Part shown: in pieces, positions 27,224 to 32,871 of the stretch
Position numbering within the stretch: the first letter of the stretch is position 1
Layout: each line of letters begins with the position of its first letter
From: Halohasta litchfieldiae
Lineage (GTDB): Archaea; Halobacteriota; Halobacteria; Halobacteriales; Haloferacaceae
DNA length: 64,000 nucleotides
Assembly: GCF_002788215.1 (NCBI RefSeq)
Contig: NZ_CP024845.1
Coordinates: 310,001-374,000, forward strand
Reading direction: 5' to 3'
The notes under the pieces: generated by a model
The model's input: only the letters and a program-made list of their open reading frames with translations
Told to the model about the DNA's origin: nothing
The model's database searches: none
Position numbers and translations under genes: made by a program

Positions 27224-27534
27224 ACCCGTTCGTTATCACCGGAGACGAAAAGCGTTCGGACGCAGGGACCTATTTGAACGGCTGACTGCTGGCCTCGGTC
27301 GACCGTCTCTCTCCATCTCGTGGCCCGAACAGTGGACTCGTACTGTCGAGAGCTGTATATAAATGTACGATTGGGAACCGTTTCGACGATCAGTCCGTGG
27401 TCGACCAACTGGATGGGGCAGGGCTGAAACCCGAGATGTCTCCAGAGAGATTCGAACGGTACCGGTCGACGGACGGTCATCCGACCCACAAAAACGGAGG
27501 ATTTATATACACTGTCGGCCATGCCATGAAGTAC
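27224..27534. promoter_or_regulatory. leuA upstream region with two TATA-like boxes
   Basis: This 311-base interval holds no convincing gene. TGTATATAAAT at about 27354-27363 and ATTTATATAC at about 27501-27509 are both good haloarchaeal TATA boxes on the plus strand. The second lies about 25 bases before ATG 27526/27535 and fits a leaderless leuA transcript. The first would give a transcript with a leader of about 150 bases. Open frames across it look like chance. Confidence 0.55.
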
Positions 27535-28762
27535 ATGTCTCACAACGACACGGAGGACTCGTCGGATTCACCGGCGGATCGAGTTCTTCGAGGGCACATT
27601 AGACAGCACTGACGAAATAGAGTCAGTACGTATTTTCGACACGACGCTGCGTGACGGCGAGCAGTCGCCACGGACGTCGTTCGACTACAATGATAAGCGC
27701 GCCATCGCCGAGCTGCTCGACGAGATGGGTACCCACGTCATCGAGGCTGGGTTCCCCGTCAACTCCGAGCCGGAGTTCGAGGCGGTCTCGGACATTGCGG
27801 CCTCAACCGATGCGACGACCTGTGGCCTCGCCCGGGTCGTCGACAAGGACGTCGAGGCGGCGATTGACGCGGGCGTGGATATGGTTCACGTCTTCGTGAG
27901 CACAAGCGACGTGCAGCTCCAGGACTCGATGCACGCGAGCCGCGACGAGGCAATCGATCGCGCGGTCCACTGCGTCGAGATGGTACGGGACGCTGGGCTG
28001 GAGGTCATGTTCTCACCGATGGACGCCACCCGGACCAACGAGGCGTTCCTCATCAAGGTAGTCGAGGCAGTCACCGAGGCTGGCGTCGACTGGATCAACA
28101 TCCCCGACACCTGCGGTGTCGCAACCCCCTCGCGGTTTGCGAAGCTCATCGAGGTAGTCGGCGAACACACCGACGCACGGATCGATGTCCACACCCACGA
28201 CGACTTCGGGCTGGCCAGCGCAAATGCCCTCTCGGGCTTCGAGGCCGGTGCCCATCAGGCACAGGTCTCGGTCAACGGGATCGGCGAGCGCGCCGGCAAC
28301 GCGGCCTACGAAGAGGTCGTCATGTCGGCCGAGAGCCTCTACAACGTCGACACCGGGATCGATACAACCCGGATCACGGAGTTGGCTCGCTTGGTCGAAG
28401 AGAAGTCGGACATCCCGATTCCGGTCAATAAGGCGGTTGTCGGCCGCAACGCGTTCGCCCACGAGAGTGGGATTCACGCCGCTGGCGTGATGGAAAACAC
28501 CGACACGTTCGAACCCGGCGTGATGACCCCCGAGATGGTCGGGGCCTCCCGAGAGTTCGTCCTCGGCAAACACACCGGGACCCACTCGGTGCGCAAACGG
28601 CTGGAGGAGGCTGGCTACGCGCCAACTGACTCCGAAGTGCGGGCGGTCACCAAGCTCGTCAAGGAGTTCGGTGCTGAAAAGCAGAAAGTCACCGACACTG
28701 TCATCGAGCGGTTTGCCGACGAGGTTGGTGTTCAGCGGGAGCCCGAGGAGGTCCGGACCTGA
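27535..28762 (+). CDS. leuA: 2-isopropylmalate synthase (LeuA type), 5' end frameshifted
   Basis: The enzyme condenses acetyl-CoA with 2-oxoisovalerate in leucine synthesis. The conserved reading frame covers about 27578-28762, with IEFFEGTLDSTDEIESVRIF, the catalytic FDTTLRDGEQSPR, HTHDDFGLASANALSGFEAG and NAFAHESGIHAAGV. No start codon precedes this motif in frame. An in-frame TGA lies at 27527, and the next ATG (27725) would remove the active-site motif. The promoter-matched ATG 27535 is in another frame. The C-terminal LeuA regulatory domain is absent. Citramalate or homocitrate synthase is the alternative; the ilv/leu cluster favours LeuA. Confidence 0.8.
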
Positions 28763-28829: not shown

Positions 28830-28838
28830 GTATTATAA
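28830..28838 (+). promoter_or_regulatory. TATA box for the ilvB leader
   Basis: GTATTATAA is a TATA-type element about 27-35 bases before the leader peptide ATG at 28865. It would place transcription start at or just before that codon. Confidence 0.55.
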
Positions 28839-28864
28839 TGACAGACCGTGTTCCATCGGGTACA

Positions 28865-28945
28865 ATGCGACAGCGCACCTCAACTCGCGGTCTTCGGTCC
28901 CGTCGAGCGGTCGCTGTCGACGTCCTCGGTATTGTAGGGGCCTAA
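28865..28945 (+). CDS. Putative 26-residue leader peptide of the ilv operon
   Basis: ATG 28865 opens a 26-codon frame that is too short for routine ORF calling. It is Arg/Ser/Thr-rich first (MRQRTSTRGLRSRR) and then ends AVAVDVLGIVGA, with seven Val, Leu or Ile among the last eleven residues, the products of this pathway. Its TAA stop lies in the loop of the GGGGC-CTAA-GCCCC hairpin at 28937-28950. A TATA box is correctly spaced upstream. This resembles amino acid attenuator leaders of bacterial ilv operons; function in an archaeon is inference. Confidence 0.5.
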   Translation: MRQRTSTRGLRSRRAVAVDVLGIVGA

Positions 28946-28950
28946 GCCCC
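28937..28950 (+). terminator. Attenuator-like hairpin enclosing the leader stop codon
   Basis: GGGGC (28937-28941) pairs with GCCCC (28946-28950) around the loop CTAA. The loop contains the stop codon of the leader peptide, and CCTTTTA follows about 8 bases later. A ribosome at the stop would prevent folding. The T-run is short, so intrinsic termination is uncertain. Confidence 0.45.
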
Positions 28951-28991
28951 ACATACACCTTTTACCACCGAGACGAGCCGAGTTTCCAGCC

Positions 28992-29040: not shown

Positions 29041-29130
29041 ATGACCAGATTCACACACACATCACAGCCCGGACGCACAGCCAGCGGATCGAAACTGACA
29101 CCTACTCCAGCGGGAGGAGCCTATACATGA
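29041..29130 (+). CDS. Possible second leader ORF, Thr-rich, overlapping the ilvB start
   Basis: A 29-codon frame starts MTRFTHTSQPGRTASGSK and ends AYT, with its TGA overlapping the ilvB ATG as ATGA. Thr makes up about a quarter of the residues. The overlap would couple ilvB translation to it. A good GGAGG at 29114-29118 lies inside it and serves ilvB. Whether it is translated is unknown. Confidence 0.3.
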   Translation: MTRFTHTSQPGRTASGSKLTPTPAGGAYT

Positions 29131-30899
29131 GCGACTCCGCACAGACTACTCCCGACACCGATGCTGACTCCGAGGCGTCGACGGCAGCTGACGACGCCCA
29201 CGAACAGGAGCCCGTCACTGACGGCTCGTCGTCGGTCGTTCGCGCCCTCGAAAACGCCGGCGTCGAACACGCCTTCGGCGTTCAGGGCGGCGCAATCATG
29301 CCGATCTACGACGCGCTGTGGAACTCCGATATCGAACACATCACGATGGCCCACGAACAGGGTGCCTCCCACGCCGCCGACGCCTACGGTGTCGTCGCTG
29401 GCTCGGCGGGCATCTGTCTCGCCACGTCGGGGCCGGGCGCGACGAACCTCGTCACCGGGATCGCGGACGCCAACATGGATTCGGACGCGATGGTCGCACT
29501 CACTGGCCAGGTGCCGAGCGATATGGTCGGCTCCGACGCGTTCCAAGAGACCGACACCACCGGCGTCACGATGCCGATCACCAAACACAACTGGTTTGCG
29601 AACTCCGCCGACACCATCGGCAACACGGTTGGCAACGCGCTTGCGCTGGCCGAATCCGGTCGACCGGGGCCGACGCTTGTCGACCTGCCGAAAGACGTGA
29701 GCTTCGAGGAGACCGATGTCGAACCGGGCGAGCCACAGGTTCCGGCTGGCTCCGAGCCGCCGACCGAGGCCGACGCCGAGCAGATCGACGAGGCCGCCCG
29801 CGCAATCGAGCGCGCAGAGAAACCGCTTCTCCTGCTCGGTGGCGGCGTGATGAAGGCCAACGCCTGCGAGACCGCCCGCGCCTTCGCGCGCGATCACGGT
29901 ATCCCGGTCGTCACAACCATGCCCGGTATCGGCACGTTCCCCGAGGACGACGAGCTGTGTCTCTCGTGGGCGGGCATGCACGGCACCGGTTACGCCAACA
30001 TGGCGATCACCCATACCGACTGTCTGATCGGTGTCGGTACGCGGTTCGACGACCGACTCACCGGTGGGATCGACACCTTCGCGCCCGAAGCGGAGGTCGT
30101 CCACGTCGACATCGATGCCGCCGAAATCAGCAAGAATATTCACGCCGACTACCCCTGTATCGGGGATGCTGGCACGGTCCTCGATCAGCTGACTGACGAG
30201 ATGGAGCACAACCCGGATGCCCGCGAATGGCGCGAGCAGTGTCTGACGTGGCAAGACGAGTATCCGATGGATTACCCGGTCGACGAGAACGCTCCCCTGC
30301 GACCGGAGTTCATCGTCGAAGCCTTCGACGAGGCAACCGACGACAACACCATCGTGACATCTGGTGTCGGCCAACACCAGATGTGGGCCGCCCAGTACTG
30401 GGAGTTCACCCAGCCCCGGACGTGGGTTTCCTCCCACGGACTGGGGACGATGGGGTATGGGCTTCCGGCAACTATCGGCGCGCGGTTTGCGGCCGACGAC
30501 GACCAAGACATCGTCTGTTTCGACGGCGATGGCTCGTTCCTCATGACGCTGCAGGAGCTTTCGGTCGCGGTCCGCGAGGATCTGGATATCACGATTGCAG
30601 TGCTCAACAACGAGTACGTCGGGATGGTCCGGCAGTGGCAGGACGCCTTCTTCGATGGCCGCCACATGGCCTCGGAGTACAACTGGATGCCGGAGTTCGA
30701 CAAACTGGCCCAGGCCTTCGGCGCACAGGGCTGGCGCGTCGACAACTACGACGAGGTCGCCCCCGCCGTCGAAGAGGCACTCGCCTACGACGGCCCCTCG
30801 GTGATCGACTTCCATATCGACCCCGAAGCGAACGTCTACCCGATGGTCGCCAGCGGCGCACCAAATGGCAAATTTGCACTCTCGGAGGATCAGCTATGA
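29127..30899 (+). CDS. ilvB: Acetolactate synthase, catalytic subunit
   Basis: This thiamine diphosphate enzyme forms acetolactate or acetohydroxybutyrate, the first common step of Val/Leu/Ile synthesis. The 590-residue protein has an acidic N-terminal extension of about 35 residues, catalytic Glu77 (MAHEQGASHAADAYG), the FAD-domain block GIGTFPEDDELCLSWAGMHG and the TPP motif GDGSFLMTLQELSVA at about 467 followed by VLNNEYVGMVRQWQ. GGAGG sits 9 bases before ATG 29127. The stop overlaps ilvN as ATGA. Confidence 0.95.
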   Translation: MSDSAQTTPDTDADSEASTAADDAHEQEPVTDGSSSVVRALENAGVEHAFGVQGGAIMPIYDALWNSDIEHITMAHEQGASHAADAYGVVAGSAGICLATSGPGATNLVTGIADANMDSDAMVALTGQVPSDMVGSDAFQETDTTGVTMPITKHNWFANSADTIGNTVGNALALAESGRPGPTLVDLPKDVSFEETDVEPGEPQVPAGSEPPTEADAEQIDEAARAIERAEKPLLLLGGGVMKANACETARAFARDHGIPVVTTMPGIGTFPEDDELCLSWAGMHGTGYANMAITHTDCLIGVGTRFDDRLTGGIDTFAPEAEVVHVDIDAAEISKNIHADYPCIGDAGTVLDQLTDEMEHNPDAREWREQCLTWQDEYPMDYPVDENAPLRPEFIVEAFDEATDDNTIVTSGVGQHQMWAAQYWEFTQPRTWVSSHGLGTMGYGLPATIGARFAADDDQDIVCFDGDGSFLMTLQELSVAVREDLDITIAVLNNEYVGMVRQWQDAFFDGRHMASEYNWMPEFDKLAQAFGAQGWRVDNYDEVAPAVEEALAYDGPSVIDFHIDPEANVYPMVASGAPNGKFALSEDQL

Positions 30900-32631: not shown

Positions 32632-32871
32632 ATGACAGACGACCAGACGATGAGCGAAACCGATCACACTCATCCACACACCGGCGATACGTTTGGGTCG
32701 GTCTACCGGCGCGGGCCGGTGGCCGCCGACGGTGGCACGGATGCGGCGACAGACAAATCAACCGTTGAGGACGTAGAGACGCCTACAATGAAAGACGTCG
32801 ACCACACCTCAACGGCTGGCACGGTACGACACATCTGGGATCGCGGGACCCAGAACGGAGCACACAGATGA
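32632..32871 (+). CDS. Small conserved ORF between ilvC and leuC
   Basis: A 79-residue hydrophilic protein starts at ATG 32632, five bases after ilvC, and its stop overlaps the leuC start as ATGA. It is His/Asp/Thr-rich, with segments [17 protein letters not shown] and [17 protein letters not shown] recall a short hypothetical gene at this position in other haloarchaea. No domain is recognised. Its position argues for co-translation with leucine enzymes. Confidence 0.65.

Follow-up and report, generated by a model that had tools for sequence, protein, structure and literature searches.

In the enterobacterial trp, ilv and leu attenuators, a leader peptide with codons for the end product is followed by an RNA hairpin upstream of the biosynthetic genes. 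The ilvB and ilvH RNA motifs of Rfam and the T-box elements are further cis-regulatory RNAs of bacterial branched-chain amino-acid genes. The closest known cases to the leader described here are those of actinobacterial ilvB (the Corynebacterium ilvB-II motif, Mycobacterium, Streptomyces), where a short ORF rich in Ile, Val and Leu is likewise located upstream of ilvBNC and over a candidate terminator hairpin (PMC1262725, PMC10272879); the likeness is one of architecture. In the ilvB leader of Streptomyces coelicolor, mutations of the control codons had no effect (PMC1262725). Leader-peptide attenuation depends on the coupling of transcription and translation, and such coupling has been proposed and little tested in archaea (PMC8116511, PMC8576121). 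The literature that we searched, outside of which most subscription journals lie, contained no report of archaeal attenuation or of leader peptides of this kind. As far as we found, leader-peptide attenuation is known from bacteria and an archaeal instance is apparently unreported.

The leader element of Halohasta litchfieldiae is situated in the gap between leuA (ending at 28762), its upstream neighbour, and ilvB (29127..30899, + strand); all positions refer to the window, i.e., the whole analysed stretch of 64,000 nucleotides at 310001-374000 of a single-contig genome. The presumed controlled gene ilvB encodes the large subunit of acetolactate synthase (TIGR00118, E = 1.7e-203). The order of the locus is leuA, ilvB, ilvN, ilvC, a small ORF, leuC, leuD and leuB, of which ilvN, leuD and leuB were assigned by eye from their translations. 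The TATA box of the ilv leader promoter (TATTATAA; 28831..28838, +), whose position is kept in the homologs, is followed by the 26-codon reading frame uORF1 (28865..28945, +; ATG at 28865, TAA at 28943-28945), which encodes the leader peptide MRQRTSTRGLRSRRAVAVDVLGIVGA. The proposed control codons ATT-GTA (Ile-Val; 28931..28936, +) immediately precede the RNA hairpin GGGGC-CTAA-GCCCC (28937..28950, +), whose loop contains the uORF1 stop codon. Then come a G-free tract of A and pyrimidines with TTTT at 28960-28963, which is the first candidate termination zone (28951..28969, +), and a second candidate zone, namely the counterpart of a conserved block CGCAYCGTTTTC that is degenerate in H. litchfieldiae (28974..28988, +). 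The interval is completed by uORF2 (MTRFTHTSQPGRTASGSKLTPTPAGGAYT; 29041..29130, +), whose TGA overlaps the ATG of ilvB at 29127. The original prediction had named the TATA box, the 26-codon ORF ahead of ilvBNC, the 5-bp GC hairpin with the stop codon in its loop and a CCTTTTA shortly after it (found at 28958-28964), and all of them were recovered here; its count of seven Val, Leu or Ile among the last eleven residues has to be corrected to six (VAVDVLGIVGA). Rfam covariance models detected no family above noise in the window between 28600 and 29300.

The leader motif occurs a single time in the whole 3.33-Mb genome of H. litchfieldiae and is present in 267 of the 293 investigated genomes of the Halobacteriales, with merely sporadic control matches; outside of the order, matches to the motif are background-like only. 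The strict pattern, AT(T/C)-GTA-GGG with a stop within a few codons, was sought by demanding Ile at position -1, any Val codon and GGG, a search that left the choice of GTA free. It is represented by 145 distinct ilvB-upstream sequences with both ORF and hairpin, which are related by descent so that counts among them are not independent events, and some of the sampled genomes may belong to the same species. Nearly all collected loci have, ahead of ilvB, a small ORF whose product closes with IVG[A/V](x), and the C-terminal consensus of uORF1 is mostly (I/V/L)-Val-Gly-(Ala/Val). The genomes missed by the strict pattern were inspected and hold about 20 variants. The Natrialbaceae-type variant has kept IRIVGA with a stop shifted 3' of the hairpin, and other leaders end in LALVLVGAL (G003), AVVGAR (L098), VVVGAV (L104) or, in two AT-rich genomes, AVQV(F/S)VGA (L252, L253). 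Three further variants (L152, L173, L174) retain GTA and have the stem recast as CGGGCC...GGCCC, and one has lost the stop (L125). The leader is absent from five divergent genomes (G009, G011, G025, G037, G248), the first four of which harbor no comparable leader region between the upstream gene and ilvB. A chance ORF or hairpin is ruled out by the conservation in 267 of 293 genomes and in the 145 sequences. The relatives have kept the frame of the ORF, the codons at its end, the hairpin and the distance to the promoter; conservation in relatives was among the checks that the original prediction had called for.

The start of uORF1 was identified by locating a TATA-like box regardless of frame and taking the first ATG 20-48 nt beyond it, which yielded 128 homologs; 17 further sequences have no ATG in this interval and stand outside the 128. 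In all but two of the 128 homologs (126 of 128), this ATG shares its frame with the GTA motif. As in attenuators, a short ORF is thus situated between the promoter and the first structural gene. The TATA-like box precedes the leader ATG by 30-36 nt, and the mode of 32-33 nt is indicative of a leader mRNA that is probably leaderless. Stops are missing from the 12 codons preceding GTA in all 145 sequences (0/145), and 38% of these codons specify Val, Ile or Leu, a figure that counts the Ile demanded by the search. The corresponding share is 16.5% for ilvB and, when the leader is read out of frame, 18% and 4%. The N-terminal part of uORF1 exhibits neither codon periodicity nor peptide conservation among the homologs, which suggests that the peptide is free except for its end. 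The leader Val codon is GTA in each of the 145 strict homologs, so that the codon pattern, which had been proposed as a check, turned out to be a fixed one; the same codon is rare in the downstream ilvB genes (34 of 6501 Val codons, 0.5%). Together with the share of Val, Ile and Leu and with the Ile-only leaders of the paralogs (see below), GTA places end-product control codons near the end of the ORF, as in attenuators.

The hairpin starts at the codon directly after GTA. All 145 homologs can form a stem of 5 bp or more, usually with the stop in its loop, and folding within a stretch of ~170 nt gave a mean probability of 0.99 for the pairing of the GGG triplet with the 3' arm. Stem scores average 18.0, compared with 12.6 for shuffled 3' parts. 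Covariation, another check named in the original prediction, is seen as compensatory changes in several lineages: G-C and C-G are found as alternative pair types at the first and the fourth stem G (1 to 3 sequences each), and the next inner pair has C-G, T-A and G-C variants. The geometry of the element suggests that the hairpin would depend on the position of the ribosome, as it does in attenuators. A classical antiterminator was rejected, since no species-specific pairing of the upstream leader with the 3' arm was found in the homologs.

Downstream of the stop codon, the homologs show a G content of 1-2% at +6 to +17 and a T peak of 38%. A second T-enriched zone extends from +30 to +42 and holds the block CGCAYCGTTTTC, which is conserved ~30-45 nt past the leader stop and may represent a termination site. 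A pairing of this block with the leader start was noticed on visual inspection in some species (CGATGCG) and is missing in others, and this candidate was dropped. Of the 145 sequences, 57 have TTTT in the first 70 nt past the stop, and none has it at 70-140 nt (0/145). The T tract begins ~7-15 nt behind the stem, i.e., not contiguous with it, and many species have no TTTT, so that termination is not certain. The tract resembles the terminators of Haloferax volcanii, which are T stretches with TC and an upstream hairpin at part of the sites; termination in vivo was observed for one hairpin as well (PMC7237163). The study in question (Berkemer et al. 2020) mapped 3' ends genome-wide, and its text does not mention attenuation or premature termination (PMC7237163).

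Four genomes harbor second ilvB copies (L249, L265, L266, L269), clearly followed by ilvN in three of them, and these paralogs are preceded by a leader that is built alike, with Ile codons in place of Val. The leaders end in GIIGIIGIIGAPQ, ASIIAIIAIIGVS, NSIIGASY and LAIIGAPQ (GIIGIIGIIGA is one example of the repeats), and each is followed by a GGGG...CCCC hairpin. This swap points to the sensing of specific amino acids and suggests the existence of Val-tuned and Ile-tuned acetolactate synthases. The exchange of Val for Ile with retention of the hairpin fits a sensor of tRNA charging; it is predicted neither by a DNA operator nor by a fixed arrest peptide. The regions upstream of trpC in about 20 related genomes contain no comparable Trp-rich leader, and those upstream of hisG in about 20 related genomes yielded a single weak His candidate, in one AT-rich genome. 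Short product-rich ORFs are thus not a general background here, and their general occurrence before amino-acid genes was rejected on the basis of these two regions.

Our comparative analysis makes it probable that a cis-acting leader couples the expression of ilvBNC to the availability of charged branched-chain tRNAs, with the architecture of a one-hairpin attenuator. We infer the following course of events. The mRNA would begin at or beside the ATG of uORF1, leaderless as judged from the TATA spacing, and a ribosome would translate uORF1 in the wake of the RNA polymerase. If Val-tRNA for GUA or Ile-tRNA were scarce, the ribosome would stall on AUU-GUA, its footprint would lie over the 5' arm, no hairpin would form and the polymerase would continue into ilvB. 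With ample amino acids, the ribosome would reach the stop and depart, allowing the hairpin to fold and transcription to terminate in the G-free, T-rich zones downstream, either alone or with aCPSF1/FttA. Read-through transcripts would be translated via uORF2, with ilvB coupled to it by the ATGA overlap. As the control codons are located directly 5' of the stem, a stalled ribosome would mask the 5' arm by itself and a competing helix would be unnecessary.

The attenuator model is supported by the 145 ilvB-upstream leaders and the variants in most genomes missed by the pattern, by the invariant rare GTA, whose frame is tied to that of the first ATG following the TATA box at leaderless spacing, and by the hairpin with its pairing probability and compensatory changes ahead of a G-free, T-enriched tract like those of Haloferax terminators. 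Further support comes from the Ile swap of the paralogs with the hairpin kept and from the lack of comparable leaders at trpC and hisG. It is weakened by the missing antiterminator helix, by the set-back T tract and the many species without TTTT, by a stop that is located beyond the hairpin or lost in a few genomes, and by the ineffective control-codon mutations in the similar S. coelicolor leader. The haloarchaeal leader shares with the enterobacterial attenuators a leader peptide with product codons and a subsequent hairpin, but no competing antiterminator helix was found in it, direct occlusion is proposed because its control codons border on the hairpin, and archaeal RNA polymerase and termination are involved. 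Given the failure to find an antiterminator, we do not file it as trp-type, although we propose that it works like one. The actinobacterial ilvB leaders differ in being bacterial, in having several branched-chain amino-acid codons instead of one invariant rare Val codon and in their poly-U directly behind the hairpin, and the Corynebacterium leader has a predicted antiterminator. Unlike them, the haloarchaeal leader is apparently leaderless and is distinguished by the G-free tract and by a uORF2 that overlaps ilvB. The original prediction of an attenuator-like leader is supported in part: the homologs share the reading frame, its final codons, the hairpin and the distance to the promoter, and the paralog swap adds to this. 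A classical trp-type switch, with an antiterminator helix and a T tract directly behind the stem, is not supported.

The main rival to the attenuator retains the same sensor and assigns it another output: a ribosome that stalls or terminates on uORF1 would set translation or mRNA stability instead of transcription termination, through reinitiation at uORF2 and ilvB or through decay of the leader. An ORF that runs into the ilvB start with its TGA over the ATG (ATGA) is found in 105 of 142 homologs, compared with 11 and 4 in the other frames, and 104 of 144 have a GGAG/GAGG/AGGT motif ahead of ilvB; both fit such an output, as does the missing bacterial-type U tract directly behind the stem. Termination-reinitiation at overlaps of this kind is documented in H. 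volcanii, but the reported reach of coupling is 30-40 nt (PMC12548453), whereas typically 60-100 nt separate the stop of uORF1 from the start of uORF2. Sequestration of the ilvB ribosome-binding site was rejected as well, because the tract past the stop pairs with this region no better than expected and without species-specific pairing. The G-free, T-rich tract would moreover be left unexplained, and we consider an output at the level of translation or stability possible, yet rather doubtful.

The two other explanations dispense with the tRNA sensor, and both appear very unlikely. The palindrome TGTAGGGG-n-CCCCTACA could be a DNA operator past the promoter for a repressor, e.g., of the Lrp type, with an incidental ORF. 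Its inverted repeat of 8-10 bp, where complete, is indeed located just downstream of the promoter, but two equal half-sites at a fixed spacing are not what the homologs show: GTAGGG is present in 145 of 145 and CCCTAC in 64 of 145, and the spacer varies between 7 and 14 nt. The lock of the motif to the reading frame, the one-sided G-free tract and the exchange of GTA for Ile codons in the paralogs equally render an operator unlikely. A comparably small chance is left for uORF1 as an arrest peptide, whose nascent C-terminus (IIVGA), possibly with a small-molecule effector, would stall the ribosome regardless of tRNA charging. The strong conservation of the peptide end agrees with this proposal, since arrest peptides exert their effect at just this extreme C-terminal position. 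However, it is the codon GTA itself that is fixed, beyond the residue, while neighbouring residues drift (IVRAR, RVRAA, LVLVGAL, PVVGAS, MVGA), and the Ile-only repeats of the paralogs are better explained by amino-acid sensing.

We return to the attenuator in its most specific form, to which we give somewhat better than even chances: a minimal one-hairpin, ribosome-mediated archaeal attenuator, in which a leaderless ORF would end in one invariant rare codon, the decoding time of this codon would set the masking of the hairpin before termination at the T tract and/or by FttA, and paralogous operons would be tuned to Val or Ile by a codon swap. If true, a bacterial-type mechanism would operate with a eukaryote-like RNA polymerase. 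Nearly all haloarchaea have the leader, the genetically tractable Haloferax among them, which would make archaeal coupling and premature termination directly testable by a reporter.

A second copy of leader and hairpin away from ilvB was observed in several genomes, most of them from one genus (L114, L117, L118, L119, L122; near base 1500). In three of these genomes, the second copy is followed downstream by a small gene with a DVDHTPP motif. The 79-aa ORF between ilvC and leuC in the window (32632-32871, +) has two similar DHT motifs and resembles these small genes; it has no match in Pfam or NCBIfam.

The 5' end of leuA (27502-27730, +) is conspicuous in its own right. The leuA frame RRIEFFEGTLDSTDEIESVRIFDTTLRDGEQ has no ATG, GTG or TTG start before 27725, and a start codon near the 5' end is missing in 29 of 56 distinct homologs. 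A TATA box at 27502-27509 is followed 33 nt on by an ATG at 27535 in a non-leuA frame, which encodes MSHNDTEDSSDSPADRVLRGHIRQH and extends to 27612. An upstream ATG in the other frame at constant phase is common to all 56 leuA homologs, and the ORF has the core CGAGTTCTTCSAGGGCAC. A programmed +1 frameshift or a non-canonical start of leuA is possible, the codon-position test being weak. In genome G248 (L251), which has no ilvB leader, an overlapping ORF of the leuA type with the core GGCGGATCGAGTTCTTCC is located ~450 nt upstream of ilvB and is possibly a leuA remnant.
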